64,000 nucleotides of DNA from Halobacteriales archaeon YIM A00013 (GTDB taxonomy: Archaea > Halobacteriota > Halobacteria > Halobacteriales > Haloarculaceae), in the NCBI GenBank assembly GCA_025041195.1, contig JAKCFM010000001.1:1302001-1366000 (forward strand), in the 5' to 3' direction. Below the pieces are notes generated by a model. It made no database searches. It worked only from the letters and a program-made list of their open reading frames with translations, and had not been told where the DNA came from. A program made the position numbers and the translations under genes. The stretch's first letter is position 1. Each line of letters opens with the position of its first letter. Positions 9,874-53,327 of the stretch are shown piece by piece.

Positions 9874-10038
9874 TAAATGACCGTTGGATGACTGTATGAT
9901 CTTCCCGCAAATCCTGCACGAGCGCACCCACAGTTTCCAACCAGTACGACAGTAAGCTTCCCTAACACTTCTATCGGAAATCCATCACATACTAATAGTG
10001 GTATTTCGATGTGGTAAGTATACACATCCTACTGGGAC

Positions 10039-10083
10039 AAAACCGGTTGCCCGGTTTTCCCCGGACGTGCTTCAACACGTCCG
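10039..10083 (+). promoter_or_regulatory. Two consecutive perfect hairpins before the coiled-coil gene
   Basis: The first hairpin pairs aaaaccgg (10039-10046) with ccggtttt (10051-10058) around a 4-nt loop. The second pairs cggacgtg (10062-10069) with cacgtccg (10076-10083) around a 6-nt loop. Both stems are perfect 8-mers, separated by 3 bp, and end 19 bp before the likely start codon at 10103. They could form a structured leader, a terminator for upstream transcription or a protein-binding site. Confidence 0.55.
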
Positions 10084-10102
10084 AGGATGGGTTGGATTGA
10101 AT

Positions 10103-10930: not shown

Positions 10931-11269
10931 GGTGTGAGCAACCGCCCTCCGATAAGAATCTATACAGGACACACATCTCAGCACGAATGACGGTCGGTTC
11001 GGTAGTAGCGGCAGGTGTGAGGAAATGACCTTTTGTTCAGTAGTCGTAGGCTGGATATTGCTAGCTATTGCTGGTCGAATAACGACCATCTAGATTCTAG
11101 CTCACGACGATCGTGAGTGGTGGTACTACTGATTCTGGGGGTGACAGTAACCCAGGCACACGGAGTCACTCTATAGTATCTGCCATACAGATCCAAATCT
11201 ATTAGACTTGTCATAGATTTCTGTATGAAATCATAAGTCGACGTGGCGGTATTATCTTTGTATTCATAT
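10931..11269. other. Intergenic region before the STAND gene
   Basis: There is no protein-like frame here. It contains a hairpin-forming ctggg...cccag sequence near 11136-11156 and a perfect 8-bp inverted repeat (11195-11220) close to the STAND start. It probably holds that gene's promoter and control site. Confidence 0.5.
11195..11220. promoter_or_regulatory. Inverted repeat upstream of the STAND NTPase gene
   Basis: AAATCTAT (11195-11202) and ATAGATTT (11213-11220) are exact reverse complements separated by 10 bp, about 50 bp before the likely start codon. The spacing places equal half-sites roughly two helical turns apart, as for a dimeric repressor or activator. Alternatively it folds as a hairpin in a leader. 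Confidence 0.45.
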
Positions 11270-13978
11270 ATGGACCCGATAACGACCGGTTTGGGGACGA
11301 ACCTGCTTGCGGCGGGGCTACTGAATCGGGGGAAGAAACGGTATCAGCAATTCCAGGCAGCGTGTCGAAAGGCAGAGTTTCACGCGGAGATCGATGCGAT
11401 CGAGACGGAGTTTCACAACAGCCTTCGAACCGCGATCGAGGAGTGCACTACAGCGCACGAGCTAGACGACGTGGCGGATATTGGAGATCACTGGGGAACT
11501 GTCATTGAGCGTCTCAAGATCACTGCTGTTGCGGACGATGATGCCGATCGGCTGGTGTTTACGAGCGAACAGGAGGCAGTCACCCGAATGGCTCAGGAGA
11601 TTGGGGCCGTCTACGGATACGACCTTGCGACCAATCCCCAACTGGAACAGGCTCTCAAGCGTGCCGTTACCGAAGCCTACGAAGAAGCCGTTTATTCGTT
11701 CGGTGAGCGCCTCGTCGACGCCGGATTGGACCAGCAGTTCGTCGCCGAGGCGAACATCGAAGAACTGGCAGCCATCGATGCGCTCCAGGACCGCCTGGCA
11801 GAAATGCACGACCGCCTCTCCCATCCCCGATTATATGAGCTGTACCCAGGGGATGCAGACGGTCGTCGACGAGCAAGCCAGATGATCGATCAGCAAGCGC
11901 TTGAATTCGTTTCCAGGCCTGAACTGAACAACAACCGCGATGCCCAGCGCCTGTTGGTTCTTGGTCCTGGGGGGTCGGGAAAGTCGCGAGCGCTGGCCGA
12001 GCTCGTTGCCACTTCGGATCAAACAATCGAGCACATCATCCGCCCGAAAGCTGCCCTCCATACTGTTAGCGACCTCCAGCCTCTTCGGGGTGAATTATTT
12101 CAGGGTGATGTACTGCTCGTCTGGGACGATATCCATGAGATCGGTCGAGAGACGGATAACACGTTGTTCCGAAAGATGGTCTTCGAACTTGAGGAATTCC
12201 TCAGCCCGGAGCATGAGCTGTACGTGATCGCAGCGGCTCAATCCAAATGGGTGAATTTACTTCCTGGGAATATCGAGCGAACGGACTCGCCGTTGTGGTC
12301 AGGATTCGAGATCGTCGAGTTGGGTGATTTAGCGGAGGAGTCGATTGGGACGTTGTTCGATCGGGGGGTAGCGAAAGAAGGGATTGATGTGCCCGAGGGG
12401 GTTCGAACCGCGTTCGTCGAGAAGGCCAAGAAGACAGATCCCTCACCGCTGTACATCACCTCCGTCGTGGAGACCGTCGACGGGATGCAGGTAACAATGA
12501 AGGATATCGAGGGTCTGCCCGAGGATGCACTCACCATCTGGCAGGAGCAGTACGAAGCCATCAAGGCTGCGAACGATGAACGACGATTCATCCTCTTGGC
12601 AGTGAAACTCCTGGCTGAACTCGGCCCCTCCCAGCTGTATTACCACTCGCTCCTCCAAGGAATCCACGCGCACGTTTTAGACCGGGATGAACTGATGTTT
12701 GAGCCGCCTCTTGAAGAGTTGTGTCGAGACCAGTGGTTTGTGCCGCAAGCTGAGACAGCAGAGAGGACGAAATACACGATCCATGATGTGCAAATTGAAG
12801 CAATCGATGAATTGGTGAATGGGCATCTCAGGGAGTACTCAACGTTTCTCTTCGGGGTGGTGGAGAGGTATCTCCCGGACACAGAGGGTATTGAGCATCA
12901 GCTACATGACCTCTACGTAAAGTATCTCTTCAATAGATCGGTGATCTGGGATCCTCAAGTGATTGAACAGCACTGTGATCGGGCACTAACACTAGAACCA
13001 GCATGTGCTAGCGCTCACATCACCTATGCAAATATTCTATCGGAAACGTTGGACGCCTCAGAGAGGGCCAAAGAGCACTACGAGGAGGCAGTGGCCATCG
13101 ATTCGGAATCATCCATGGCCCACTACAACTACGCGATATTTCTGTCAGAGGAAGACAGCACGGTGGAGGAGGCCAAAGAGCACTACGAAAGGGCATTGGC
13201 TATCAATTCGGAATCATCCGTGGTCCATTACAATTACGCGAAGCTCTTGGAGGAAAAATTAGAGATGCCGAAAAAGGCGAAGCAGCACTACAAGCAGACA
13301 TTGGCTCTCGCCCCGGAGTATGGTGTCTATCATTGTCGCTATGGAAATCTCTTGATTGATGAATTGGATGAACTTGAAGAGGCGAAGAGGCACTACAAGC
13401 AGGCTTTGCAGTTGTTTCAGGATGAAAGCGGTCACAGGGCGAAATTATCTACTCTTAGTGGATTAATTCGCATTCATCGGGCCTGGAACAACGATTCTAT
13501 GGCATTAGACTACTGTGAGCATGCGCTAGAGATCCATTCGGCCAATTCCAGCGATCGACGCTGGTTTGAGGGCATCCGTGCACTTCTAACAGAGACGGAC
13601 AGCCGGTCGCGGTATCGACATGGGCTGACGGCAGTCTGTGACGACCACTGTGACCTTTCGCGAGATCTCTTTGAACGAGTGTGGACGAACCATGACGACT
13701 ACCTCACTGAGTCCGCGTCCACAGAGGTGGTTTTTGGTGCAGGAGTCATGCTGGCAGCCCTTACTCGGAGGGATGGTGACGACACTCAAGCGGTCGAGGA
13801 GATCCTGAGCTGTATCGAACCGTCGGTCCTTGCTCCTTCTATCAGTATCCTGTACGCATCTCTGAACGGTGAATCCGCCGACTCAGTCGATGTCTCCATA
13901 ACTGATGAGCCCCCTGCGGATATTCCAGCGCTCGAACGGCAAGCAGTTGCTCACGTTCTGGATCATGACGAGCACTAG
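11270..13978 (+). CDS. STAND-type NTPase with TPR repeats
   Basis: A 902-residue protein starting at the ATG at 11270 (MDPITTGLGTNLL); the frame is open a little further upstream. Residues 1-205 are an alpha-helical N-terminal domain like those before NACHT modules. The NTPase follows, with Walker A GPGGSGKSRAL (about 232-240) and Walker B DVLLVWDDIHE (about 281-291). A helical and winged-helix region comes next. Four or more TPR-like units lie at about 570-765, for example AKEHYEEAVAIDSESSMAHY. This signalling-ATPase layout is shared with Avs, NLR-like and other prokaryotic immune sensors, in which the repeats sense a phage product. No nuclease or other effector domain is obvious. Nothing around it is an obvious partner. 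Defence is an inference. Confidence 0.8.
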   Translation: MDPITTGLGTNLLAAGLLNRGKKRYQQFQAACRKAEFHAEIDAIETEFHNSLRTAIEECTTAHELDDVADIGDHWGTVIERLKITAVADDDADRLVFTSEQEAVTRMAQEIGAVYGYDLATNPQLEQALKRAVTEAYEEAVYSFGERLVDAGLDQQFVAEANIEELAAIDALQDRLAEMHDRLSHPRLYELYPGDADGRRRASQMIDQQALEFVSRPELNNNRDAQRLLVLGPGGSGKSRALAELVATSDQTIEHIIRPKAALHTVSDLQPLRGELFQGDVLLVWDDIHEIGRETDNTLFRKMVFELEEFLSPEHELYVIAAAQSKWVNLLPGNIERTDSPLWSGFEIVELGDLAEESIGTLFDRGVAKEGIDVPEGVRTAFVEKAKKTDPSPLYITSVVETVDGMQVTMKDIEGLPEDALTIWQEQYEAIKAANDERRFILLAVKLLAELGPSQLYYHSLLQGIHAHVLDRDELMFEPPLEELCRDQWFVPQAETAERTKYTIHDVQIEAIDELVNGHLREYSTFLFGVVERYLPDTEGIEHQLHDLYVKYLFNRSVIWDPQVIEQHCDRALTLEPACASAHITYANILSETLDASERAKEHYEEAVAIDSESSMAHYNYAIFLSEEDSTVEEAKEHYERALAINSESSVVHYNYAKLLEEKLEMPKKAKQHYKQTLALAPEYGVYHCRYGNLLIDELDELEEAKRHYKQALQLFQDESGHRAKLSTLSGLIRIHRAWNNDSMALDYCEHALEIHSANSSDRRWFEGIRALLTETDSRSRYRHGLTAVCDDHCDLSRDLFERVWTNHDDYLTESASTEVVFGAGVMLAALTRRDGDDTQAVEEILSCIEPSVLAPSISILYASLNGESADSVDVSITDEPPADIPALERQAVAHVLDHDEH

Positions 13979-32839: not shown

Positions 32840-34591
32840 ATGACCGAGTACTTCGAGGTAATCGAGCGTGATGGCCCGGCCCGACTTGGCCGGCTCCGGC
32901 TTGCCACGCCGGTGGCGACGCCCGCGCTCGTTGACGAAGTGATCGAGGACGCTGGCAGCCTCTGGCCGACAGAGCGTGACGCCCCCGACGGTGATGACGA
33001 ATCGCTCACGATATTGCCCCATCGTGCGTTTCCCGCTGGAACCGCATCCGAGGTGGAATCGGCGTTTGCGGTCGAGCCGGACTCTGTGTCGTTTCCCAGC
33101 GCCACTGTGATCTCCCGAGAGACCGCCAGCGATTACAACACCGATGCGTACGTCCTTTCTGAGGCGTCAGGGATAGTCGGCAACGCCCGGGCGTTCGTGG
33201 AGACGATCATCGACGTTCGCTCGTCAATTCCGGATGACACAGGGCTGTTTTGCTCAGGGGTGGCAACAGCCGCCAATGCAGCGGTGCTCGCCTACGCCGG
33301 GATCGATTGTTTTGACACCCATCGGGCGCATCTTCGCGGTCTTGAGGGATTCTACCAGACTACGGACGGCGAACAGTTTCTTGAAGATTTATCAGAACTA
33401 CCGTGTGCGTGTGCGGCCTGTCAGCAGTCACGTGAGGCGTTTGGCCCCGAGGACTGCGCTGCCCACAACGTGAACGCGCTGCGAGCGTCGCTGGCGACCG
33501 TTCGCGAGCAAATTCGAGCGGGGACGCTCAGATCGTACATCGAAGGCCAGGCTCGCCACGAGGCGTGGCTCACTGCGGCGTTTCGCCGACTGGATCAGCA
33601 GTACGGCTATCTCGAAGCGCGGACACCCCTGGTGCGGACGGCAGAAATGCTGGCGGCGAGCGACGACGCCATGCGCCGCGTAGAGATCCAGCGGTTCGCG
33701 GATCGGGTCTGTTCGCGTTATCGCAATCGCTTCGACCAGCCGCTCGTGCTCGTCCCGTGTTCGGCACGGAAGCCGTACAGCAGTTCACAGAGTCACGGCC
33801 AGTTTCACGAGGCGATCAACTACCGCGCCCACACCGTCTCAATGACCTCTCCTATTGGAGTCGTGCCACCGGAGCTGGAGTACACCTATCCTGCCCAGCA
33901 GTACGACAGCGTCGTCACCGGCCGCTGGAGCGAGTCAGAGATCGAGTTCGTTGCCAACGTTCTCAAGCGCTATCTTGAGCGCAACGACTACCCACGTCAC
34001 ATTGCCCACGTCCCACCGGGTGGCTATCAGGAGATCTGTGAGCGAGTCCAAGCACGGACCGACGTGGAGTTCGAGTTCACCGTCGCGGAGCATCCAACGA
34101 CAGACGATGCCCTCGAAACGCTGTCGGAGACACTCAGCGGTGAATCAACGTTTCTGAAGCGCGAGCGCGAACACAACACCGTTCGGGCGATTGCTGATTA
34201 TCAGTTCGGGGCTGGCGCTGGAGACGAGCTGTTCGGTGCGCTCTCGGTCGATGGCTATCTTCCCGGGTTGCGGGTTCACGACGACGACGGCGAACAGCTC
34301 GCAACGATCGTCCCCAAATACGGAACGCTCTCGTTCACCCTTGCTGGGGCACAACGCTGGAACGAAAGCGACGTCCCAACCAACCGCGTCGAGATCGACC
34401 CGTTCGTTCCACAGGGAAGCGTTCTCGCACCGGGGATAACGAGTGCCAGCGAGTCAATTCGCGTCGGGGATGAGGTGTTTGTCGAGGGTGAAAAGGCAGT
34501 TGCCGTTGGTCGAGCGAAAATGCACGGGGCAGCTATGGAGAGCTCGTCGCGGGGAATCGCCGTCGAGGTTCGCCACGTCGAAGAGCGTTAG
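32840..34591 (+). CDS. arcS: Archaeosine synthase ArcS (TgtA2)
   Basis: Converts preQ0-15 in tRNA to archaeosine. The 583-residue protein keeps the degenerate Tgt-like N-terminal half (with ACAACQQS in place of the zinc site) and the ArcS-specific block ([19 protein letters not shown]). It ends in a PUA domain ([17 protein letters not shown]) that binds the tRNA. The motif [15 protein letters not shown] is typical of the ArcS family. It lies 28 bp after tgtA and overlaps the convergent msrB by 4 bp. Confidence 0.93.
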
Positions 34592-34986
34592 TTTTCTTCG
34601 TCGAATTCGAGTGCCACGGAGTTGATACAGTAGCGCTTGCCAGTTGGGTCGGGGCCATCATCAAACACGTGGCCGAGATGTCCCTCACAGCGGGCGCAGA
34701 CAACTTCGGTTCTCACCATGCCATGGCTCGTGTCTTCGCGATATTCGATGGCGTCCTCAGCCGCATCGAAAAAGCTCGGCCAGCCAGTGTTTGAGCCGAA
34801 CTTCGTCTCCGAATCGAACAGTTGCGCACCACAGCCGGCACAGCGGAAGGTTCCGTCGCGATCTTCGTCGATATACTCTCCCGAGAACTTTGGTTCGGTT
34901 CCACACTCGCGCAGCACGCGGTATTCGTCCTCCTCAAGGGTTTCGCGCCACTCCTCCTCGCTGTCTGGAACGGACTCATCGGTCAT
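34588..34986 (-). CDS. msrB: Peptide-methionine (R)-S-oxide reductase MsrB
   Basis: Repairs oxidised methionine residues. The 132-residue protein has both zinc-binding CxxC pairs (CAGCG and [16 protein letters not shown]) and the catalytic signature [11 protein letters not shown], where the cysteine is the nucleophile. A complete conserved set including [11 protein letters not shown] is present, so the enzyme should be active. It overlaps the end of arcS by 4 bp on the opposite strand. Confidence 0.95.
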
Positions 34987-35080
34987 ACCATTTGTAGCCG
35001 TGCTGGTCGGTTGTGTGTTTCGACAGCGGCGGCCTCTGTGACGGAGGCCAACACAGCAATCCTCATATTACCGAGATTAG

Positions 35081-35458
35081 ATGTGTTTGACAGTGACTGA
35101 GAAGAACGCCGAACCGTTCGATCAAGCGGCTGTCCTGACCCAGCTGCAGAATGCGTGGTCGCTCGAAACGAGCACACTGTGGACTCCAGAGAATCCTGCG
35201 CGCGGACAGTGTCCGGTCACGGCGCTCGTGATACAGGATCACGTTGGTGGCGAGATCAAAAAGACACCAACCGAGGATGGCCCACATTTTTACAACGTCA
35301 TTGATGGGGAGCGCTACGATCTGACGGCCGGGCAGTTCGAATCCCTCCCGACGTATCTCGATTTGCCATCGGATCGAAGCGAAGCGTTCGAGCACACGAA
35401 CGAAACACAGTATGACGCGCTTTCTGAGCGATTTTCCACCGAAGCAATCGAGAACTAG
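35081..35458 (+). CDS. YunG family protein
   Basis: A 125-residue protein with the features of the YunG family: PENPARGQCPVTALVIQDHV with the conserved cysteine, then GGEIKKTPTEDGPHFYNVID and YDLTAGQFESLPTY. The single Cys plus His/Asp residues suggest a transglutaminase-like fold, but the function is unknown. The ATG at 35081 is used; a GTG four codons later is also possible. It overlaps the convergent regulator by 4 bp. Confidence 0.75.
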   Translation: MCLTVTEKNAEPFDQAAVLTQLQNAWSLETSTLWTPENPARGQCPVTALVIQDHVGGEIKKTPTEDGPHFYNVIDGERYDLTAGQFESLPTYLDLPSDRSEAFEHTNETQYDALSERFSTEAIEN

Positions 35459-36078
35459 GTGACGAACGATTCGATAATCCGACCTTCTGCACGGTGGAGG
35501 ACGCCACTCGCAGCTGATGAGTTGACATCGAACGCTTCTGCGAGTTCGTTCAGGGTGATTTTCCGGGGACTCTCGTAGTAGCCCTGTTCGACCGCCGCGG
35601 TAACGAGTTCCTGTTGTCGGTCTGTGAGCATTGCAGTCGGTTCGTACGACTGTGTCAGTGATTCGATTTGGTAGGGAATGTCTGCAGCACGGAGCTCATC
35701 GCCAAATCGCGTGAGCTGGTCGTGGGGGGCCGTTATCTCGGTGATGAGCCAGCCATCCTGCAACTCGTACGGGAATCGAATGCGTGTCCCTGAAGACTTG
35801 ATCGCGTGATACGACTCTGGGACTGGAATCGCATACTGAATCAGGCGCAACTGTTCTTCGGAGTGGAGAACCTCGTGCGATTGCACAGTCTGCGATTCGT
35901 TGAAGCGTTGAACGATTGCCCCTGCGTTCGGTGACGTCACTTCGACGATCCCGAACAGCCCATCGTCCGTACAATGGCCCGTCTGTACCGAAAATTCCGC
36001 CGCTGGGAACGCAGCCGAAAGGGTGGCGAGCCAGCTTCCGGTAGCCGCCTGATTGAGTCGTATTTTCATCCGCGCCAT
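35455..36078 (-). CDS. HTH_10 (Bat-like) transcription regulator
   Basis: A 207-residue haloarchaeal regulator from ATG 36078 (MARMKIRLNQ). The C-terminal HTH_10 domain is clear: LTDRQQELVTAAVEQGYYES, then ITLNELAEAFDVNSSAASGV. The N-terminal sensing part has no recognised cofactor motif. It is divergent from the SDR and MFS genes 97 bp away and could control them. Confidence 0.85.
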   Translation of the reverse strand: MARMKIRLNQAATGSWLATLSAAFPAAEFSVQTGHCTDDGLFGIVEVTSPNAGAIVQRFNESQTVQSHEVLHSEEQLRLIQYAIPVPESYHAIKSSGTRIRFPYELQDGWLITEITAPHDQLTRFGDELRAADIPYQIESLTQSYEPTAMLTDRQQELVTAAVEQGYYESPRKITLNELAEAFDVNSSAASGVLHRAEGRIIESFVT

Positions 36079-36175
36079 ACGGTGATGGACGGGCCTGGTC
36101 GCCTTAGGGGTATGTAAACAGGTGAATATACTCATCCAGAAAGCTACGACCAACTGCCCACCATCTGCAACTGCA

Positions 36176-36979
36176 ATGGAACCAAACTTTGAAGGGAAGA
36201 ACCGGCAAGCAGGAACGTCGCAATCGCTGTCGTTCGACAACAGAACGGCCCTCGTTACTGGTGGGAGTTCGGGGATCGGCCGGGCAACCGCCATCGCGTT
36301 CGGGAACGCGGGTGCAAACGTCGTAGTAGCGGGTCGAACCAGAGCAACTGGCAACGAAACCGTCAGTCGAATCGAAGCGATTGGTGGGACGGCAACGTTC
36401 ATCGAAACCGATGTGACCAGTGAGCAAGCTGTCGAGCGGATGGTTGCAGAGACGATCGAAACCTATGGACGGCTTGATTACGCCATCAACGGCGCCGGGA
36501 ACGTCGGAAAACCGGGACCGCTCACTGATCGAACCGAGAGCGACTGGGAGTACACAATGAATGCGAATCTCAAAGGCGTGTGGCTGTCGATGAAACACGA
36601 GATTCCACATCTCAGAGAGAACAATGGTGCAATCGTAAACATCGCATCTGATTTCGGACACGTCGGATTCGAGGAGTTCTCGCTCTACGTCGCTGCCAAG
36701 CATGGGGTGATCGGTCTGACGCGCGCTGGGGCCCTTGAGTACGCTGAGGACAATATTCGGATCAACGCAGTGAGTCCCGGCGCAATCAACACGCCAATGA
36801 ATCGAGATCGACTCGGCAGCGCAGAAGCCGTCCAAAAAGCGTTCGGTCCAAGCCATCCCCTCGGGCGTGTTGGCACTCCAGAAGAAGTTGCTGATGCAAT
36901 CGTCTGGTTGGCGTCTGATAACGCCTCGTTCGTCACCGGCCACTCGCTCCTCGTAGATGGTGGATACACTGCGCAATAG
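36176..36979 (+). CDS. Short-chain dehydrogenase/reductase (SDR)
   Basis: A 267-residue classical SDR from ATG 36176 (MEPNFEGKNRQ). The nucleotide-binding motif is GGSSGIG (about residues 29-35), followed by GRTRATG and the NGAG motif (INGAGNVGK). The catalytic residues are the serine of NIASDFG and the YVAAK pair, so the active site is complete. The arginine after the second strand suggests NADP(H). The substrate is unknown. An MFS transporter follows 19 bp later, so the two probably act on one compound. Confidence 0.9.
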   Translation: MEPNFEGKNRQAGTSQSLSFDNRTALVTGGSSGIGRATAIAFGNAGANVVVAGRTRATGNETVSRIEAIGGTATFIETDVTSEQAVERMVAETIETYGRLDYAINGAGNVGKPGPLTDRTESDWEYTMNANLKGVWLSMKHEIPHLRENNGAIVNIASDFGHVGFEEFSLYVAAKHGVIGLTRAGALEYAEDNIRINAVSPGAINTPMNRDRLGSAEAVQKAFGPSHPLGRVGTPEEVADAIVWLASDNASFVTGHSLLVDGGYTAQ

Positions 36980-36998
36980 ATCGTATAACGTCGTAGAA

Positions 36999-38210
36999 AT
37001 GATAACTAGCCATCAAACCCGACTACTGATTGGGACGCTCCTTGTGGCAAGCATGTTGACGATCCTCGTTGACACCGCGATTTCGCCCGCACTGCCGGCA
37101 ATCGAACGCCACTACGCAGGCGTCGCGAATGCAGCCTTTTGGGTGAGAGTTCTGCTCGTTTTTCCCTCGCTGTTCGTTGCGCTCGGTGCACCGCTCATGG
37201 GTGTGATCACCGACCGTCTCGGTCGAATGCCGGTGTTACTCGTCAGTACAGCGCTGTACGGTGTTGCCGGTGGCGCAGGTTTCATCATTGAGTCACTGAC
37301 ACTCCTTTTCGTCTCGCGTGCACTCCTCGGAATCGGTGCTGCGGGGGTGTTCGTTGCAGTTACAACGCTCATCACGGATTACTTTCCGTCCGAACAACGC
37401 CGCGATACCGTCCTTGGCTGGCAGGGCGCAAGCATGACGTTCGGCGGAGCGGCCTTTTTCCTCTTTGGTGGCGCTCTGGCGGGTGTTGGCTGGCGGGTGC
37501 CGTTTCTCCTCTATCTTGGAGCACTCGGACTGCTGCCGTGTATTGTTGCTGTGGTGTACGAACCCGACGTTGCTCACGATGCTCCCAAAGCGGATGGGTC
37601 CATTCAACAGGTCCTCGATCGACTGCCGTATGGACAGCTCGCGCTGGTGTATTCGACAGCAGTGATAGGGATGGTCGTATTTTTCATGGTGCCGGTTGAG
37701 ATACCGTTCTATCTCACTGCGGTGGTGAATGCGGATGATCTCACCATCGCAGTTATCCTCGCCACACAGGCGCTTCTCGCAGCGATTGTTTCGACACAGT
37801 ATAGCCGTGTTCGCTCACGGATCGGTATCATTCCCATTGTCGGACTGCTGTTCGCATTCATGGGTGTTGGATTCAGTATCGTGAGTCTTGGTGAGACGCT
37901 GGTGGTTGTTCTGGTCGGAACGCTGGTAACTGGCGCTGGTGTTGGATTTCTCATCCCGAATCTAAACACCTGGATTGCCACCGCCGTTCCTGCTGGCGTG
38001 CGTGGTCGCGCCGTCGGTGGATTGACGAGTTTTCTCTTTCTCGGGCAGTTTCTGTCTCCATTTGTTAGCTCGCCTATCAGCACGTGGCTCTCCCTTCGAA
38101 TGACGTTCCGAATCGGTGGTGGACTATTGGTCGGCCTCAGCATTGTCATCGGTGTGTGCGCCTGGTATGGCAGTGGACCGAATCATTCTGATTCAACCAC
38201 CACCTCCTGA
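36999..38210 (+). CDS. MFS transporter
   Basis: A 403-residue, twelve-helix major-facilitator protein from ATG 36999 (MITSHQTRLLIGTLL). The helix-1 and loop-2/3 motifs (ISPALPAIERHYAG and GVITDRLGRMPVLLVS, containing DRLGR) are those of drug:proton antiporters. It belongs to a different subgroup from the two MFS_3-like paralogues in this window. It is cotranscribed with the SDR gene (19 bp apart). Confidence 0.9.
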   Translation: MITSHQTRLLIGTLLVASMLTILVDTAISPALPAIERHYAGVANAAFWVRVLLVFPSLFVALGAPLMGVITDRLGRMPVLLVSTALYGVAGGAGFIIESLTLLFVSRALLGIGAAGVFVAVTTLITDYFPSEQRRDTVLGWQGASMTFGGAAFFLFGGALAGVGWRVPFLLYLGALGLLPCIVAVVYEPDVAHDAPKADGSIQQVLDRLPYGQLALVYSTAVIGMVVFFMVPVEIPFYLTAVVNADDLTIAVILATQALLAAIVSTQYSRVRSRIGIIPIVGLLFAFMGVGFSIVSLGETLVVVLVGTLVTGAGVGFLIPNLNTWIATAVPAGVRGRAVGGLTSFLFLGQFLSPFVSSPISTWLSLRMTFRIGGGLLVGLSIVIGVCAWYGSGPNHSDSTTTS

Positions 38211-38348
38211 TCGCATCCACGGCTCGGTACCCGTCACTTCCACCGTTCGGACGTGCCGAGATATTTCGAGGCTACGATCCCTTTCTCTCGAAAATCTCGT
38301 TTGCAAAAAACCTATGCCGTCTGGTACTGAACGTCTGTGAACGATACT

Positions 38349-38744
38349 ATGACACTCTCCAGACGTCAATTCGTACTGACAAGCACTACACTCACTGGGG
38401 CAGTTTTTGGAGCCGGGTGTCAGTCGTTCGTGCAGCTGCATGCTGACGTGTTTTTGAGAAATAAGACCCAGACAGAGCAAACGATTTCGCTTACCATTCA
38501 CGATATGAGCGGAGATGAAGTATTCGAAAAAGAGATCAATCTCGAACCAACGGACGGGGGAGAACCACGGATACTCGGCAATCCTGTCGAACGGGATGCA
38601 GATTACACCGTCACTGCACGAACAGACAGCGGATTCAAAGCGACGTGGGATTGGACCGACGTTGAAGGGGAGCTTCGAATTACTATCCAAAACGGGGCGA
38701 TCGAACATTCTGCGGCGACGGGATCTGGAATGGGAACGGAGTGA
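38349..38744 (+). CDS. Tat-exported lipoprotein of unknown function
   Basis: A 131-residue protein starting at ATG 38349 (MTLSRRQFVLTSTTLTGAVF). The twin arginine followed by a GAGC lipobox marks a Tat-translocated lipoprotein with mature Cys23. The mature part looks like a small beta-sandwich (for example ADVFLRNKTQTEQTISLTIH), a common haloarchaeal fold of unknown role. An upstream GTG (38337) could add four residues. Confidence 0.8.
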   Translation: MTLSRRQFVLTSTTLTGAVFGAGCQSFVQLHADVFLRNKTQTEQTISLTIHDMSGDEVFEKEINLEPTDGGEPRILGNPVERDADYTVTARTDSGFKATWDWTDVEGELRITIQNGAIEHSAATGSGMGTE

Positions 38745-38943
38745 ATTGTATATACTCTATCAATATATTCCATCTGTCGTATGGTATTGCCTTATTGAGA
38801 ACATTCTGATTCCACTCTGGGAATAACTAACAGTGATCCGTAAAATGATGAGAGTCACTGATGTCACAATTACCATTCCAGATATGTCGGGGAAACGGGT
38901 TGATTTGATATTCCCCTAATCGTTCAAATCCTCACTATAGTTC
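38745..38943. other. AT-rich gap after the lipoprotein gene
   Basis: No gene seen. This is where composition changes from that of the chromosome to the AT-rich reverse-transcriptase island, so it marks the island's left boundary. Confidence 0.5.
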
Positions 38944-40674
38944 TCATAGATTTTCTTGTGCATCCATATTACCAACTTTAATTGCCATATCAACTAGTCT
39001 ATAATTGCCACTAATATTATTATAGAAACTCTTCCGTCTACCTAATTCATATTGACGCAATCCATACACAATAACTCCCTTAGTGAGTTCTCGTTCTGTC
39101 TCACCGTAGAGTGCTTCAATGCGCTCCCAGTCTGAATAATCACCATGTTCAGAAAGTATGGAAATAGCATACTCTCGGGTTTCGATAAGATCACTCCATC
39201 CGTCTAGTACCTGTCGTGCACAGTGAATAACTTCCATTGAGTCAAATCTCTGCTCATAAAACCAGCGAAGAACCAAGAAGTTATGATAGTTATACCTAAG
39301 TTCTTTATTTGCAACTATTAATGCCAATCTTGTTGCAACCTCATCTGCATTTGAAAGGTGACGGAAATAATTATACAGGATTCGTCGAACATCGGGGTTT
39401 CCATCCTTAATGTACTTGATACAATACTCTACCGCGATAGGATCCTCTGCTTTTCCCAGTCGGTTGATTATATACCTGAATAGATGAGTATTCAATTGGC
39501 TGAATTCGTTGTCTTCGATGTAACGTGAATATGCTTCGTGTAAATAATCTCTCTGTTTATTAGTTATTTTATCATCTGAATCATCGTCATCCCCATCCTT
39601 GAGGTCTACCTCTTTCGGTGGGGGGCCTCCATCCCGCATGGGTTCTCCATATTCTACCACTTTACCCACTCCATAAGGAACCGTACTACCAACTACCGAA
39701 CGGGCGTGTTCTGCGGCAACTTCAGTGATAGAACTTTTCATAACTTCAATTTCATCTACCTTATCACACCTATTCTCTTTTTCATCTCCTATATCTTGCT
39801 TTATTTTCTCAAATGTTGATTCTGGCTCAGCATATGCTTGAAGAGCATCTATTGCTGGCATTATCTCTGTCTTTCCAGATTTCATATTTAGACCTCGAAT
39901 TCTGAACTCCCGTTCCAGAAGGTTTTGGGCCTCAATTGCTCCATCTCGGGAATCACAGAATACAACAAAGTCGTCATTATATCGGACATGATCGAACCCA
40001 TTATTTTTCAGCCTTTTATCTATACCATCCAAATAAATCTCAGCAAGTATGTCAGAGGGTCCATATCCTTGTGGAACCCCTCGTTTTCGTGGCGATGACC
40101 AGGGTCGAAGTAAATGCCTCATTTCGTTTCCAACATCTTGTCGACCAGTAAATTGCTTAAATAATGAGGTGACCCTTTCAATATCGATATTTTCATAAAA
40201 CCCAGATATATCCGTTTTTAGAACATATTCGCTATCTTCAGCAAGATCGATTTTCTTCTCCTGCATTGCAGTCCAATATGGTTTCTCAAATTCATCCCAC
40301 TGATTCGTATCCTCAATATCTTCTTGAAGAATATGTGAATATCGACATTTCCCTGCAGACCATTGAATTGATGAGCGCAGCTCATCAAAAACCTCCAAAA
40401 TTAGTGCGGAATATACGACCAAATCTTCGGGATGCAATACACTGGCTGGACGGAGATGATAGTTCCTCTTCGGTACATCGATTATTCTTGGTGGGCGTGG
40501 GTCATATTCGCCATTGGCTAGTGTATCTTTGAGTGTCTCAAGCCAGGGCTCTTTGTTCCGTTCTAAAACCTCTATGACATACGGACTGCTGATAAAAGAA
40601 TTCATGTAATGATTGTAATCTCGCTTCGTTTTCCGCCAGGCCAAAGATAAACTCAGATTCTCGGCAAAGTCCAT
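38944..40674 (-). CDS. Reverse transcriptase with C-terminal helical repeats (candidate defence RT)
   Basis: A 576-residue protein from ATG 40674 (MDFAENLSLSLAWRKTKR). The RT core is complete: a fingers block with IDVPKRNYHLRPASVLHPED (about 70-90), motif A LKTDISGFYENIDIE (about 151-165), motif B KRGVPQGYGPSDILAEI and motif C HVRYNDDFVVF (YNDD, about 226-236). An acidic linker (about residues 362-370) separates it from about 200 residues of helical, HEAT-like repeats. No maturase X domain, HNH nuclease or group II intron is present, and retron-specific motifs are not evident. The layout fits the unknown-group/defence-associated RTs (AbiA/AbiK/DRT-like). The gene is AT-rich, stands alone and lies next to tRNA-Ile. 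Confidence 0.85.
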   Translation of the reverse strand: MDFAENLSLSLAWRKTKRDYNHYMNSFISSPYVIEVLERNKEPWLETLKDTLANGEYDPRPPRIIDVPKRNYHLRPASVLHPEDLVVYSALILEVFDELRSSIQWSAGKCRYSHILQEDIEDTNQWDEFEKPYWTAMQEKKIDLAEDSEYVLKTDISGFYENIDIERVTSLFKQFTGRQDVGNEMRHLLRPWSSPRKRGVPQGYGPSDILAEIYLDGIDKRLKNNGFDHVRYNDDFVVFCDSRDGAIEAQNLLEREFRIRGLNMKSGKTEIMPAIDALQAYAEPESTFEKIKQDIGDEKENRCDKVDEIEVMKSSITEVAAEHARSVVGSTVPYGVGKVVEYGEPMRDGGPPPKEVDLKDGDDDDSDDKITNKQRDYLHEAYSRYIEDNEFSQLNTHLFRYIINRLGKAEDPIAVEYCIKYIKDGNPDVRRILYNYFRHLSNADEVATRLALIVANKELRYNYHNFLVLRWFYEQRFDSMEVIHCARQVLDGWSDLIETREYAISILSEHGDYSDWERIEALYGETERELTKGVIVYGLRQYELGRRKSFYNNISGNYRLVDMAIKVGNMDAQENL

Positions 40675-41559
40675 ACATACCAACCAGTTCCCATCACAAT
40701 GAAACTTCACCCTGATAGGTGTGTGGTTCGTCTTGCCTACTGCCCTTATTGCCAACTACATGTAATATGAGCTTCTTCCGTTTCTCTGTGAACTGAGGCA
40801 CTGCTCCACTGAACCATTCCAATCAGTCCGGGGGCTGACTTTCTTGGAATATAATATTAATTTCCATTAGATTCCATTCTTGATTATTGTCATATTATCC
40901 GACATTAATAAAGAACCAATACTAAATAATACCACTAATATTAATAAAAATTCATTCTGCCTATGAATATGGGTAATAACCTATCTCATTTCGCGTGGTG
41001 TATCTGTCATTGCCATTTATGACATAAATTCTGGAATATCTATGAATAGGATCTTTAATTTTTATTAATCAATCCAAGTTTGTTACTGTAGTGTTGTCTG
41101 AGATCTGCAGCCCTGCTGAGAAATATTGTCATAGTAACACCTGCGGTAGTGGATAGCCGCTCCCGATAACCTCGAAAGAGCGAGGGAACTCAATAAGGAG
41201 GCTGATGTGTTCCTTTCTATCTGTAACCATAAGAAACGCTGCCACACATGCTCGACCCCAGTTAACGCGGGGGACATCGGACCGTTCTCCGCCGTATTCA
41301 TAACAATCTGAAGAAGCCTCTACGTAGTGCTTTTCGTGAATTTGTGATGAGAGAAAAATTGCTACTATTCATTCGGAGCGAAGTCTGAGTTAGCCACTTA
41401 CCACTGCCAACAAACTAGTTATATGAGCCATAGTGTTTCAAATATGGAACGCTCTGGATACCACGACCTCGAATAGTTCAATTGAGCTCCCATCCAGAGA
41501 TACGGGAAGGATCGGTGAAAAGCAATTCTATCTCCCAATGTAGTCCACATCGTAAAACA
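40675..41559. other. Long AT-rich non-coding region between RT and tRNA-Ile
   Basis: Almost 900 bp without a convincing gene. Several TATA-like stretches on both strands are seen. A start-less minus-strand frame at 41129-41368 reads like protein (NWGRACVAAFLMVTDRKEHI, ending in GSGYPLPQVLL and a stop) but belongs to no family I know. The part nearest the RT start contains a hairpin (40817-40849). This is the expected place for the RT promoter and for an RT-associated RNA. Confidence 0.5.
40817..40849 (-). ncRNA. Hairpin upstream of the reverse transcriptase
   Basis: Outer arms TTCCAA/TTGGAA and inner TCAG/CTGA pair around a C-rich loop, with a 5-nt bulge, about 145 bp before the RT start codon on the same strand. 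Defence RTs and retrons often have an adjacent structured RNA as template, so this segment is a candidate part of one. The evidence is only local base pairing. Confidence 0.3.
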
Positions 41560-41633
41560 TGGGCCGACACGGATTTGAACCGCGGACCTCCCGGTTATCA
41601 GCCGAGCGCTCAACCTAACTGAGCTATCGGCCC
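41560..41633 (-). tRNA. tRNA-Ile (GAU anticodon)
   Basis: The minus strand reads GGGCCGATAGCTCAGTTAGG in the acceptor and D-arm, an anticodon loop CTGATAA (anticodon GAT), and a T-arm with GGTTCAAATCC, closing with CGGCCC plus the discriminator A. CCA is not encoded and there is no intron. Its 3' end points toward the RT island, a usual position for integration of mobile elements. Confidence 0.95.
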
Positions 41634-41716
41634 GTTGTACGCATTCTACTGTATTGCCCTGTATTGTTTAAGCGTTTCTTTTCGCTAGCCACATGGTCGT
41701 CAATCGCTCTCAATCG

Positions 41717-42205
41717 TTAATCGCTCCCATTGTCGCCTTCGACGGAGTAGTCGTCTTCGCCGAGATCGATCGTCGACCCATCGTTGCTGTTCGGAAAGCC
41801 ACCGGTGTACACCGATCCTGTAACAAAGCCACCGGATTTGCCGTCGAGATACGGCGTCACGACGAACCGCTTGAGGAGTTTGCGAACTGGATACCGCGTT
41901 GGCGGCAACGACAGCACCAGTCCGGTGAGATCGGTCACCAATCCCGGCGTCAGGAAAAACGCACCGGCACCGATCAGCAGCGCGCCATCAAGCAGCTCAT
42001 CATCAGGGACGCCACCAGAAGCCACCTTGCGGTTGATCCGCCGGAGCGTGTGTCTCCCTTCTGCCCGAACGAGCAACATTCCCAACAGCGCGGTCAGGAC
42101 GACGAGCAACACCGTCGCCACCTCTCCAATAACTGTCGACACAGCGAGCAACAGCAGTATATCCAGCAGGGGAATGAGCAACAGCAGCGCGATCAGCCGC
42201 TTCAT
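41717..42205 (-). CDS. fxsA: FxsA family membrane protein
   Basis: A 162-residue protein from ATG 42205 (MKRLIALLLLIPLLDILLLL). It has the FxsA pattern of three or four helices with GALLIGAGAFFLTPGLVTDL, where the G-A-F-L-L-x-P-G-x-x-T-D motif is diagnostic. The polar C-terminus is shorter than in bacteria. In bacteria FxsA sequesters the phage T7 exclusion factor PifA; in archaea the role is unknown. Confidence 0.9.
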   Translation of the reverse strand: MKRLIALLLLIPLLDILLLLAVSTVIGEVATVLLVVLTALLGMLLVRAEGRHTLRRINRKVASGGVPDDELLDGALLIGAGAFFLTPGLVTDLTGLVLSLPPTRYPVRKLLKRFVVTPYLDGKSGGFVTGSVYTGGFPNSNDGSTIDLGEDDYSVEGDNGSD

Positions 42206-42300
42206 GGCCCGAGCTATGCTGTCCGGACGCAAACGTGTTGCGCTCGACTGGCGGCCGTGCCGTCCGACGATTGATGGCACTGTGGTGGCAAACAAAATTC

Positions 42301-43185
42301 ATGACTGAAAGCTCACTCGTGATCTCCGAATCCACACCTGCAGAGGCGTTCGGAAAGCTCTCCCACCCAGTCCGGGTCGAAATCCTCCAGACGTTGGCCA
42401 CCTTGGAGACGCCGTGTTCGTTCGGTGAGCTGCGTAGCGCCAGTTCAATCGATGATCCAGGACAGTTCAACTACCACATTCGCACACTCGATGGAACGTT
42501 CGTGAACAACACCGACGAGGGCTATGCGCTCTCCGTGGCGGGCCATCGCCTCGTCGGTGCAGTCCGGTCGGGCGTCGCAACAGAACGATTCGAAGCCAAT
42601 CAGTTCTCACTCGGGGGGAGCTGTCACAGCTGCGATGGCACACTCGTCGCCTCATTCGACGATCGCACAATCGAGGTGGTCTGTGACGATTGCACCGCGG
42701 TACACACCGAAGCGTCGCTGCCACCGGGATCGCTTGTGGGGAGTTCTCCAGATTCGGTGGCGACGACGATCGATCGGTGGTGTAAACGAATGATGGCCGA
42801 CGCAGAACACGGCATCTGTCCGAACTGCAGCGACGATCTGAATCGACGTGTCGTCATTCCAGCAGACAAAGACGCGCCGGACTGGCTCACCGGCGACGAG
42901 CTCGAAGCCACCGTTTTGTACAACTGCGAACACTGCGGCGAGCGCTTCCAGTCCGTCCTACAGTATGCCCTCCTCACCCATCCCGCGGTGATCAGTACCT
43001 ACTACGAGGTCGGCATTGATCTACGAGACCGATTGAACTGGGAAATTCCAGGAATTGATCCCACGAGTGCCGACGTTGTCGCTACCGATCCGCTTGCTGT
43101 TGCAGTCCCGTTCACGATCAACGGAATACGATACCAATTCGTCGTGAACAGATCGCTCAAACTGCTCGAAACACGATCAGGCTGA
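42301..43185 (+). CDS. ArsR-like regulator with zinc-binding C-terminal half (paralogue)
   Basis: A 294-residue protein from ATG 42301 (MTESSLVISE), paralogous to 21196-22083. It has the same winged helix (AFGKLSHPVRVEILQTLA, then DDPGQFNYHIRTL) and cysteine pairs CHSCDG, CDDC, CPNC and CEHCGE. The MFS exporter 43277-44521 starts 91 bp downstream on the same strand, so regulator and pump are probably one unit. Confidence 0.83.
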   Translation: MTESSLVISESTPAEAFGKLSHPVRVEILQTLATLETPCSFGELRSASSIDDPGQFNYHIRTLDGTFVNNTDEGYALSVAGHRLVGAVRSGVATERFEANQFSLGGSCHSCDGTLVASFDDRTIEVVCDDCTAVHTEASLPPGSLVGSSPDSVATTIDRWCKRMMADAEHGICPNCSDDLNRRVVIPADKDAPDWLTGDELEATVLYNCEHCGERFQSVLQYALLTHPAVISTYYEVGIDLRDRLNWEIPGIDPTSADVVATDPLAVAVPFTINGIRYQFVVNRSLKLLETRSG

Positions 43186-43276
43186 ACGTAGGGTGATAGA
43201 AACGAAGTTCTACAACCAGCCCGACAGAAATATAATTCTACAAACATTTGATAGCCCGTGTCTCCCAGCCATAGCC

Positions 43277-44521
43277 ATGGAGTCGCTCGCGCAAAACAGA
43301 ACGTATCTGCGGTTGTTGTGTGGTCGAATCGTCACGAACGCTGGCGATAGCATCTACGCGATTGCTTCGATGTGGTTGGTGTACGAACTCAGTGGGTCGT
43401 CTATCTACACCGGGATTGCTGGCGCCGTTATGTTCGCAGCGCAGCCGTTGCAGGTGTTGCTGGGACCGTTGATCGATCGTGTGGCGGTCCGACGGCTCCT
43501 GGTCGGAACGCAGACAGTCCAGCTGGTTGGCGTGCTCGCGATTGTCGCTCTCTACCAGCACGAGCTGTTGACCGTCTGGCTGCTGATCGGCGTGATGGGC
43601 GCACTCGAACTGTGCAACCAGATCGTGTATCCGGCTCAGAGCGCCGTATTGCCACGGATCGTCGACGATTCGCAACTCGCACGTGCGAACGCCTGGTTTT
43701 CGATGAGCTATCAGGGCGTAGACGCGGTTTTCAATGCAGTGAGCGGTGGATTGATCGCACTCGTTGGTGGCACAATCCGCGTGTTTATGCTCGATTGCCT
43801 GACGTTCGTGATCGCCATCGTGGCCTTCTGGGGACTCTCGATTCAACCACAGGATCAGAACAGCTCCGAAAACGATGACGAACAGTATATCGAAGCGCTC
43901 ACCGCCGGTGTCACCTATCTTCGAGGCTCGCTGATTCCATGGCTATTGGGCCCGGCAGTGATCGCAAATTTTGCATTCGGCGTGGTTATTGTCACGCTCC
44001 CAGCATTTGGAGCGGCCAACGGCGGGGCGTGGGTCTATGGATTGCTGGGAGGTTCGATGGGAGCCGGGCGATTCGTCGGCACCATCATCGGGCCACGCCT
44101 CGAAACGATTCCGTACGGCGTGATTCGGATCGTTGGGGGTCTCCTTGGCTGTGCTGTGCTGGTGGTCGCCCTGCTGAGTTCGTCGGTGTGGTCGATTATC
44201 ATCGCGTTCGGATTGAGCACCGTACCGAGTGGCGCTGTAGGAGTGCTCGGTGCGACGCTGTTTCAGACAGGGATCGAAACCGACCGCCTCGGTCGGATCA
44301 TCGCCATTAGAAACGCCGCAAGCACGCTGTTGCTTCCCCTCGGAGCTGCGATCGGGGGCATGCTCGCAACGCAGCTTACGCCGGCGATCGGGCTAGTGGC
44401 GATGGCAGGCGCTAATCTGATAACGGCCGTGGTGTTTGGTCTGCATCCACGACTCAGGCGACTCCCAGCGGTCTACACCGTCGATGGGACGACGCTGGGT
44501 CTTGTCGACAAAACGGACTGA
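43277..44521 (+). CDS. MFS transporter (paralogue)
   Basis: A 414-residue twelve-helix exporter from ATG 43277 (MESLAQNRTYLRLLCGRIVT), closely similar in sequence and layout to 25383-26639. The LLGPLIDRVAVRRLL loop corresponds to FVGPLVDRWPLRSIL there. It follows its ArsR-like regulator on the same strand. Together they make one of two copies of a regulator/exporter module in this window. The substrate is unknown. Confidence 0.88.
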   Translation: MESLAQNRTYLRLLCGRIVTNAGDSIYAIASMWLVYELSGSSIYTGIAGAVMFAAQPLQVLLGPLIDRVAVRRLLVGTQTVQLVGVLAIVALYQHELLTVWLLIGVMGALELCNQIVYPAQSAVLPRIVDDSQLARANAWFSMSYQGVDAVFNAVSGGLIALVGGTIRVFMLDCLTFVIAIVAFWGLSIQPQDQNSSENDDEQYIEALTAGVTYLRGSLIPWLLGPAVIANFAFGVVIVTLPAFGAANGGAWVYGLLGGSMGAGRFVGTIIGPRLETIPYGVIRIVGGLLGCAVLVVALLSSSVWSIIIAFGLSTVPSGAVGVLGATLFQTGIETDRLGRIIAIRNAASTLLLPLGAAIGGMLATQLTPAIGLVAMAGANLITAVVFGLHPRLRRLPAVYTVDGTTLGLVDKTD

Positions 44522-44532
44522 GAAATCGGCCG

Positions 44533-45489
44533 CTATTCGGTCGTTGGCTCGTCCGCGTCGATCTCCTCGTCGAGTTCCTCAGCGATCTCGTCGGCATCAA
44601 CGTCAACGTCTTCGAGCGCATCTTCGAGGTCACCGCCACCCATCATTCCGGGCATTCCCATGCCACCCATCGGGTTGCCATCGATGACTTCCTGCACGAT
44701 GACGCGATCGATCCCAACCTGGTCGATCAGTTGCTGGGCGATCTGCTGTTTCTGGAACATCCACTGCTGGTTCATCGCCAGCTGTGGGTCCGAATCGATG
44801 TAGAGCGTTTCCTTTTCGACCGTCACGGTTTCGGTCTCGGGCTCGCCCTCATCATCATCGTCGTCGCTCTCGACGACCTGCTCTTCTTCGACTTCGTCAG
44901 TCTCGATGAACATGTCGAGCTCGATGTCGAAGAACATGTTCATCAGGCCCTGCGCCTGCTCGAGTTCGTCGTCGACCTCGCCGACGATCTCGTACTCGTA
45001 TTCGATGTCGTCACCGGCGAGCGGGTGGTTGAAGTCAACGCGGGCGCGGCCGCCGATGATGGTCTCAAGATAGCCCTGCTGATTATCGATCTGGACTGCA
45101 GCGCCTGGGTAGCGGTCGTCTTCAGGAATCTTGTCCGTACTGACCGTCCGGACCTCCTCCTGGTCGTACTCGCCAAACGCCTCTGGGGCTGGGACGGTAA
45201 CCGATCCACTGTCACCAACCTCGCTGCCTTCGATTGCCTCCTCGACATCCGCAAAGATGTGTCCGGAGCCCAGAACGATCACGCGTGGCTCGAACGTTCC
45301 TTCGTCGGCGACGCCTTCCTCCTCGGCGACCTCCTCGTCGGTCGTATCGACGAGCGAATCGTCTTCAACGGTCCGTGCCGTGTAGGCCAGACGGACGAAA
45401 TCGCCGTCCTGAAGGCCACTCTCTGTACTTTCTGCTGCTTCCTCGGATGCCTGGGTCTCCTCTGCAGACTCGTCTGATTCTCCAGTCAT
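44533..45489 (-). CDS. FKBP-type peptidyl-prolyl cis-trans isomerase, SlyD-like
   Basis: A 318-residue acidic protein of the archaeal long FKBP type from ATG 45489 (MTGESDESAEE). The FKBP domain begins GDFVRLAYTARTVEDDSLVD and continues in RVIVLGSGHIFADVEEAIEG. The chaperone-like insert-in-flap domain contains GRARVDFNHPLAGDDIEYEY. A C-terminal domain of about 130 residues, typical of haloarchaeal members, ends in a Glu/Asp-rich tail with the short GNPMGGMGMPGMMGGGD stretch. It assists protein folding in the cytoplasm. Confidence 0.92.
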   Translation of the reverse strand: MTGESDESAEETQASEEAAESTESGLQDGDFVRLAYTARTVEDDSLVDTTDEEVAEEEGVADEGTFEPRVIVLGSGHIFADVEEAIEGSEVGDSGSVTVPAPEAFGEYDQEEVRTVSTDKIPEDDRYPGAAVQIDNQQGYLETIIGGRARVDFNHPLAGDDIEYEYEIVGEVDDELEQAQGLMNMFFDIELDMFIETDEVEEEQVVESDDDDDEGEPETETVTVEKETLYIDSDPQLAMNQQWMFQKQQIAQQLIDQVGIDRVIVQEVIDGNPMGGMGMPGMMGGGDLEDALEDVDVDADEIAEELDEEIDADEPTTE

Positions 45490-51621: not shown

Positions 51622-51705
51622 GCGTGGGTAGCCAAGCCAGGAAACGGCGCAGCGCTTAGGACGCTGTCTCGTAGGAGTCCGCCGGTTCAAATCCGGTCCC
51701 ACGCA
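51622..51705 (+). tRNA. tRNA-Leu (UAG anticodon)
   Basis: GCGTGGG at the acceptor pairs with CCCACGC at 51698-51704. The anticodon loop is CTTAGGA (anticodon TAG), a long variable arm follows as in class II tRNAs, and the T-arm is CCGGTTCAAATCCGG. The discriminator is A; CCA is not encoded. A TATA-like box lies about 25 bp upstream. The 3' end is duplicated downstream in a tandem array. Confidence 0.96.
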
Positions 51706-52090
51706 GTGAACGAACACCGTGAGCGAACGGAGCGGATTCGGATTTGAATCAGGGAGCAGCTTTGCTGCGACCGTGGTTCAAATCTGGTCCTACCTATCCT
51801 CGTGAATGGGTCTGTGATCAGACGACCGTGGTTCAAATCCGGTCCCACGCAGTGAACGAACTCCGTGAGTGAACGGAGTGTGACTGGATTTGAATCAGGG
51901 AGCAGCTTTGCTGCGACCGTGGTTCAAATCTGGTCCTACCTATCCTCGTGAATGAGTCTGTGATCAGACGACCGTGGTTCAAATCCGGTCCCACGCAGTG
52001 AACGAACTCCGTGAGCGAACGGAGCGGATTCGGATTTGAATCAGGGAGCAGCTTTGCTGCGACCGTGGTTCAAATCTGGTCCCACGATGT
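51684..52090 (+). repeat. Tandem 146-bp repeat built from the tRNA-Leu 3' end
   Basis: The 21-bp tRNA 3' end ggttcaaatccggtcccacg(c) recurs at 51684, 51830 and 51976 (exact period 146), with a fourth, altered copy at 52067 that ends the array. Each full unit also holds a second T-arm-like copy (ggttcaaatctggtcctac), an inverted ggatttgaatc, and small hairpins (ctccgt...acggag and gcagctttgctgc). The first two units differ at only a few positions. This looks like amplified attachment-site DNA or an array of tRNA-end-like RNA elements. Confidence 0.85.
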
Positions 52091-52196
52091 GAGAAGGAAA
52101 ACGAAAAAGCATGCGGTTGGTTCTGGGTTCTGAAACACCGCTGGAAAAATTGATAACAGTAATAAGTGATACTGGAAAAGAAAAAGGAGAAAGACT

Positions 52197-53327
52197 ATGT
52201 CAAAGAGAATCCACAGTATCGATAGTTTACGTACCATCGCCATATTTTTTGTTATTATAGCACACGCTAGCCCATTTAAAGGAGTTGGTACATACGGAGA
52301 TCATATCTTCTTCATTTTAGACACTATTGGACAGTTTGATGTCCCGTTTTTCTTTGTGGCTTCCGGGTATTTCTTTGCGAAAAAAGTGAATCAAAACAAT
52401 GTTCTAAACTACATAACAAACGTTGTTCGAAAACTGGGTTCGCTCTATCTGTTCGGAATACTCTGCTCATTAGTGGTTGTTGCTAGTATTGAGCTGATTA
52501 CCAATCATCAATTCATAAACGCAGTTGTTCAAAAGTTAGTTGAAAATAACTCACTCCTCAAAATGGTGTACTACGGAGGATCCATTTCGTGGCATCTGTG
52601 GTTTCTGACCGCACTTATCTTCTGCCTCATATTTGTCTCGATATTTGTCATTTGTGGGAAAGAGCGTTACGTACTTCCAGTCGCTGCAATTGCACACGCT
52701 TTCGGCATTTTATCGCAGAACTATCCGATGATCTTTGATGTATCGTATCCGACACGAGATGCCCTTTTCTTTGGGTTTTTCTACGTCGCACTCGGTTTCC
52801 ATATCCGATCGTCCGACTGGAAACCCAATAAAGATCGCAGTCGGCTCTATCTTGGAGCTTTCTGTGTTATCATGGTCATTCAACTCCTTGAGCAGTATGC
52901 CATCGCCTATCTCATCCGGGGAGTTCCGTTTGATCAAATCTACTTTACGGAATACACCATTGCCACAACACTTCTGGTTTCAGCACTCTTTATCTATGCT
53001 CTCTCGAATCCTGATCTCGGAAAGGGAACGATCCTACCAGATTTGGGGGAATACGCAGTCGGAGTATTTATTCTTCATTTGCCGTTGTACCGAGTGATCG
53101 AAGCCCTGAATGATATCGTATCGACGCAGTTCGGTATTAATCCCCGGTCGACGATTCTGTGGCATCTAGCCATCGTGCCCCTCCTGTATGTTCTCTCGTT
53201 GGCCATCTACCTCCTCATGGCAAAGCTACGGATCATCGAACTCGGAGGGAGTCATATTCCATGGCTCAGCTATATTCGAACTCGATTCCAAACAGCGGAC
53301 ACAGACAAAGGTGTCACAGCTGACTGA
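52197..53327 (+). CDS. Acyltransferase 3 family membrane protein
   Basis: A 376-residue protein with ten or more helices. The N-terminal RIHSIDSLRTIAIFFVIIAH has the arginine and histidine pattern of acyltransferase-3 enzymes (RxxxxxxVxxxH), which transfer acetyl or other acyl groups to surface sugars. PFFFVASGYFFAKK is the second conserved region. The start is supported by an aaggag Shine-Dalgarno sequence eight bases upstream, unusual beside mainly leaderless genes. It is AT-rich and follows the tRNA-Leu repeat array, so it is probably acquired. Confidence 0.85.
   Translation: MSKRIHSIDSLRTIAIFFVIIAHASPFKGVGTYGDHIFFILDTIGQFDVPFFFVASGYFFAKKVNQNNVLNYITNVVRKLGSLYLFGILCSLVVVASIELITNHQFINAVVQKLVENNSLLKMVYYGGSISWHLWFLTALIFCLIFVSIFVICGKERYVLPVAAIAHAFGILSQNYPMIFDVSYPTRDALFFGFFYVALGFHIRSSDWKPNKDRSRLYLGAFCVIMVIQLLEQYAIAYLIRGVPFDQIYFTEYTIATTLLVSALFIYALSNPDLGKGTILPDLGEYAVGVFILHLPLYRVIEALNDIVSTQFGINPRSTILWHLAIVPLLYVLSLAIYLLMAKLRIIELGGSHIPWLSYIRTRFQTADTDKGVTAD

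Follow-up and report, generated by a model that had tools for sequence, protein, structure and literature searches.

A solitary UG21 reverse transcriptase in a small foreign insertion of a haloarchaeal genome, probably an antiviral-type enzyme that builds DNA without a template

The window, by which we mean the whole 64-kb stretch of DNA analysed here, contains an intact minus-strand ORF (38944-40674) that codes for a 576-aa reverse transcriptase (RT), with the coordinates and strand that an earlier note, made from the letters of this DNA, had given (Table 1). The ATG at position 40674 is the conserved RT start, and in-frame GTG (40710) and TTG (40755) codons are present further upstream. Based on Pfam, the protein contains RVT_1 alone (E=3e-17, residues 139-272), and a search for a maturase X or endonuclease domain in the RT protein with the same models returned none, in agreement with the earlier note, which had described an RT free of both. 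The motifs TDISGFYENID, GVPQGYGPSD and YNDD, on which that note had based its claim of complete RT motifs and intact aspartates, were all found; in the alignment of six homologues, the catalytic residues D155, D234 and D235 are invariant, as in an intact RT palm. The comparison of the window RT with the RT of locus L027 gave a dN of 0.16 and a saturated dS of ~2.7, with a dN of 0.08 in the RT part; at the sequence level, this indicates strong purifying selection between the two genes and a protein that is maintained.

Table 1. Features of the RT locus, with positions given in window coordinates
Feature	Position	Strand	Basis or remark
2813-bp insertion, RT its sole gene	38746..41558	.	Missing from congener G183
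UG21-group RT, 576 aa, ATG start	38944..40674	-	ORF, PADLOC RT_UG21, tree
C-terminal predicted alpha-solenoid (HEAT/alphaRep-like), residues 381-576	38947..39534	-	AlphaFold2 and Foldseek alphaRep 6gx7_E
Tyr551, candidate DNA-priming residue	39022..39024	-	Invariant in six homologues
Variable acidic linker, residues 286-380	39535..39819	-	Gappy in six-homologue alignment; pLDDT mostly <50
RT fingers/palm, residues 1-285	39820..40674	-	RVT_1 and invariant columns in six homologues
Catalytic YNDD (D234, D235)	39970..39981	-	Y232, D234, D235 invariant in six homologues
Motif GVPQGYGPSD	40051..40080	-	G199, P201, Q202, G203, Y204, S207 invariant
Motif TDISGFYENID, D155 first catalytic Asp	40183..40215	-	T154, D155 invariant in six homologues
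AT-rich DNA, RT start to tRNA-Ile	40675..41558	.	Unique; without detected structured RNA
tRNA-Ile(gat), bordering the insertion	41560..41633	-	ARAGORN and Rfam

The closest congener of the window genome, G183, aligns to the window with ~91-94% identity at 34001-38745 and 41559-45060, while the segment between these two blocks is missing from it and other DNA is found instead. The G+C content of the RT region is ~0.40, compared with 0.55-0.60 in the surroundings, and the right edge of the insertion coincides with the 3' end of tRNA-Ile(gat). The earlier description of a solitary RT in foreign-looking DNA beside a tRNA gene was thus borne out, and the RT gene was horizontally acquired within a small patch of foreign DNA. 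In each of four congeners, the tRNA-Ile 3' end recurs in one or two additional copies of 26-33 bp (L020:6346-6373; L021:2930-2956 and 4280-4312; L022:2913-2940; L023:1309-1334 and 2714-2741). Extra tRNA-end copies of this kind are the usual scar of tRNA-targeting integrases; therefore, the tRNA-Ile site is an integration hotspot in the genus. In the window, a search for a second copy of the tRNA-Ile end found none left.

Elsewhere in the window, a second AT-rich stretch (51706-53100, with a G+C content of 0.42 at 52001-53000) lies directly after a plus-strand tRNA-Leu(tag) gene at 51622-51705; it holds no convincing ORF of at least 70 aa and is perhaps an integration relic. The product of a plus-strand gene at 11243-13978 is 911 aa long; a STAND-NTPase/AAA domain is matched weakly, and TPR repeats come after it, a layout similar to that of the Avs-like NTPase sensors. 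This protein has no PADLOC match, and the gene preceding it (9998-10930) has a weak LmuB match. The low G+C content at 8-10 kb and 14-15 kb, around the gene of the 911-aa protein, suggests another island.

The PADLOC model RT_UG21 matched the window RT over nearly its full length (483 bits, E=2e-145, residues 4-567 on model positions 2-498 of 503), and the runner-up model, UG20, scored far lower (198 bits). Therefore, as judged from these profile matches, the window RT is a member of the UG21 group of the UG/Abi ("DRT") reverse transcriptases. RT_UG21 (PADLOC entry PDLC03759), catalogued there as a DRT, was also the best PADLOC model for five further homologues. The earlier note had anticipated a defence system not yet described; its defence-type part stands, and its undescribed part does not, given the RT_UG21 match and the naming of UG21 by 2021 at the latest in the RT classification (PMC8934634). 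A literature search of incomplete coverage returned no experimental study of UG21, which is thus an already catalogued group and, as far as this search shows, an experimentally unstudied one.

In a tree of 21 RTs, the six UG21 members formed one group with a support of 89/90, which was 91/94 in a tree without three long branches. UG21 joined UG20, UG33, Abi-P2 and DRT8 (UG7) at 92/96 in the 21-RT tree, where references are few and some branches are long, and UG21 and UG20 were united at 95/96 once the three long branches were removed. The opposite side of the tree was occupied by the group II introns, RT-Cas1, the Class 2 RT DRT3a and two other viral RTs. A clustering with group II maturases, named beforehand as the finding that would speak against the earlier note, was not observed; a clade of UG21 with group II and RT-Cas1 was rejected by the AU test (p=0.005).

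UG21 is an uncommon group of patchy distribution, with five occurrences among 391 sampled haloarchaeal genomes, and three haloarchaeal families searched in full added no further UG21 genome (~500 haloarchaeal genomes in all). One more member was located on a Halomontanus rarus plasmid (L029), and one of the relatives, that of Natrialba sp. SSL1, came from an alignment-based genome scan. The five relatives are 75, 52, 34, 33 and 33% identical to the window protein, the nearest being that of L027 (75%). Single-sequence scans of the genome and viral collections returned no UG21 relative, the phage records held distant RTs only, and a phylum-wide sample contained, beyond the known UG21 copies, DRT8 genes only. 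The weak RT_UG21 matches outside the haloarchaea (G701 and G784) were rejected as UG21 members, being DRT8. DRT8 RTs are present at L050 and L051, in organisms that belong to this phylum but not to the haloarchaea, and an IMG/VR viral contig (L007:5605-7299) codes for a DRT8 RT, that is, a defence RT on a virus or provirus.

The loci of the relatives differ in content. At L027, an integrase is located 86 bp from the RT and a tRNA-Pro lies on the opposite side, while at L026 an integrase and a tRNA-Arg are found inside a 17-kb stretch with the RT. On the Halomontanus plasmid, the BREX genes brxC, brxB, brxA and brxE are located upstream of the RT, which is a single case, and at L025 and L028 the RT is a lone gene with chromosomal genes on both sides. 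These contexts follow the pattern of mobile defence cargo. A partner gene is clearly absent in the window, L025 and L028 only.

Non-coding DNA of 885 bp precedes the RT in the window; in the relatives, the upstream gap measures 134 bp at L027, 141 bp at L025 and 215 bp at L028, and the downstream gap at L027 is 86 bp. The comparison of the flanks of the window, L025, L027 and L028 identified no common block. Only L026 and L029 have conserved blocks in common; these are non-coding, measure ~140 and ~190 nt and lie around the RTs, and a ~160-nt block is repeated at L026, with one copy on each side of the RT. Because one block recurs within L026 and the blocks lie away from the RT start, they are probably parts of mobile elements and not a UG21 RNA. 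The folding z-scores of the UG21 leaders ranged from -1.5 to +1.2, without unusual stability, and the lowest z-score among 50 windows folded across the non-coding DNA of the 64-kb stretch was -1.8. A search of the DNA upstream of the RT (40675-41558) against the 391 haloarchaeal genomes yielded a sole match of 30 bp, located inside an unrelated transporter gene, and a repeat search around the RT returned short, chance-like repeats only. From these comparisons, a conserved or unusually stable RNA beside the UG21 RT was not detected, and a very short one could have escaped, because the comparison comprises just six homologues.

The C-terminal residues 375-576, modelled alone with AlphaFold2, were predicted to form a 12-helix alpha-solenoid (pLDDT 73, pTM 0.69), and the best PDB match of this model in Foldseek was the HEAT-like alphaRep 6gx7_E (probability 1.00, TM ~0.5, E 0.04). 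Since the TM of ~0.5 is accompanied by an E value of just 0.04, the match is of moderate strength. The modelling check proposed in the earlier note thus supports, with that moderate strength, its view of the C-terminal ~200 residues as HEAT-like or alphaRep-like. The full-length AlphaFold2 model, built with three sequences, is weak (pLDDT 56) and too poor for geometry. Its Foldseek matches across both the RT and the repeat domain were chiefly to DRT4/UG15, DRT6, Abi-P2, AbiA and AbiK, all of them at a TM of ~0.2 and with this weak model as the query; among the entries for group II and retron RTs, those with the highest scores were mostly aligned along the RT part only.

Class 1 enzymes consist of an RT and an alphaRep domain, oligomerise and carry out protein-primed, template-free DNA synthesis (PMC13174585, PMC13275509, PMC9508834). 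UG21 membership, the intact active site, the two domains, the mobile context, BREX in one relative and the absence of a detected adjacent RNA were established directly; the placement of UG21 in Class 1 would follow from its architecture and from a small tree with long branches. Because UG21 shows the same layout, and neither a partner gene nor an RNA was detected, a Class 1 mechanism is our best guess, and we give a probability of roughly 55% to the reading in which UG21 is a single-gene RT of Class 1 architecture that acts alone and synthesises protein-primed, untemplated DNA with an antiviral function. The window RT, which belongs to an antiviral-type group, would probably act against viruses through untemplated DNA synthesis. 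By analogy with the Class 1 relatives, the alpha-repeat domain would drive homo-oligomerisation of the RT, an internal tyrosine would prime DNA synthesis, and the palm would produce protein-linked DNA with no nucleic-acid template; virus infection would trigger the RT and virus production would be limited, probably via abortive infection. Tyr551, the invariant tyrosine closest to the RT C terminus among the six homologues, is put forward as the candidate primer purely as a hypothesis, by loose analogy with residue Y666 of DRT3b; the remaining invariant tyrosines are candidates as well.

The Class 1 reading has to be weighed against an RT that, in the manner of Class 2, would make repetitive DNA on the template of a short RNA derived from the leader or flank of the RT gene. 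Class 2 DRTs employ cis-encoded RNAs (PMC12632851, PMC13174585), the window has its long non-coding upstream DNA, and the window and L027 share similar DNA directly before the ATG. We nevertheless consider this reading unlikely: the tree sets UG21 apart from the Class 2 DRT3a, the gaps are small in the relatives, the flank and leader comparisons gave neither a common block nor an unusual fold, and no alphaRep domain has been described for Class 2 enzymes to date. Rather unlikely, too, is an RT that serves the replication of a mobile element, or its exclusion of rival elements, and not host defence. UG21 copies do reside on a plasmid or in elements that target tRNA genes, with integrases near two of them; however, the RT is solitary among chromosomal genes at L025 and L028 and is the only gene of the window insertion, the groups related to UG21 are defence RTs, and the exclusion of rival elements overlaps with defence itself.

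That the gene is a decayed or domesticated, inactive relic would fit an element reduced to 2.8 kb whose second tRNA-end copy is gone from the window, but the ORF is full-length with every catalytic motif present, and the dN and dS values relative to L027 point to strong purifying selection, which makes a relic very unlikely. It is scarcely credible that the window RT is a retron RT or a maturase astray from a group II intron. The palm motifs are common to all RTs and the NCBIfam model group_II_RT_mat scores 84 bits on the window RT, yet the cut-off of this model is 300, far above that score, the retron St85 model reaches 40 against a cut-off of 235, Pfam finds no domain X, and the clade with group II and RT-Cas1 fails the AU test. 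An Rfam scan of the whole window returned two tRNAs and nothing else, with no group II intron or retron RNA, as expected from the earlier note, which had seen neither intron RNA nor retron features. A group II or retron identity was rejected on the NCBIfam cut-offs, the AU test, Rfam and Pfam.

With regard to the template-free Class 1 reading, it is a tentative possibility that UG21 represents a haloarchaeal branch of the one-gene antiviral polymerases, which, in a salt-rich cytoplasm, would synthesise DNA untemplated and primed by the C-terminal Tyr551 of the protein. If so, it would be, as far as we found, the first RT of this sort with a demonstrated defence role in an archaeon, and its product or trigger could be unlike the bacterial ones. 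To our knowledge, the well-studied DRT and Abi RTs are all bacterial. Genetics and cultured viruses are at hand for some haloarchaea, and with the solitary, intact UG21 one can ask cleanly, by way of a single gene, whether template-free DNA synthesis acts as an archaeal defence and what UG21 produces.

Among the known systems, the Class 2 enzymes DRT2, DRT9 and DRT10 are defence RTs with a conserved cis-encoded RNA, unlike UG21, for which none was found. DRT3b (UG8) combines an RT with an alphaRep domain, as UG21 does, and uses no nucleic-acid template; it primes from Y666, a tyrosine near its C terminus (PMC13174585), but it needs a second RT (DRT3a) and an RNA, neither of which was found near UG21. 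The Class 1 enzymes Abi-P2 and AbiK, template-free and protein-primed, are, like UG21, solitary, with an RT-like and a C-terminal helical domain and with the aspartates kept, while their full-length identity to the window RT in the Foldseek alignments is ~12-14%. Their priming residues are Tyr44 in AbiK and Tyr61 in Abi-P2 (PMC9508834), whereas UG21 has no fully invariant tyrosine in this part of the N-terminal region, Tyr32 and Tyr57 being kept in five of the six members. The next-best models were UG20, UG19, UG22, UG23 and DRT8, several of them aligned over the RT and the C-terminal domain, all at under half of the UG21 bit score, and UG20 and DRT8 form separate clades where sampled. UG21 itself (PDLC03759) is like the window RT in its near-full-length match, two-domain layout and tree clade, with no real difference found; within the group, the acidic linker of the window RT and its L027 relative is longer than that of the Natrialba and Halomontanus members.
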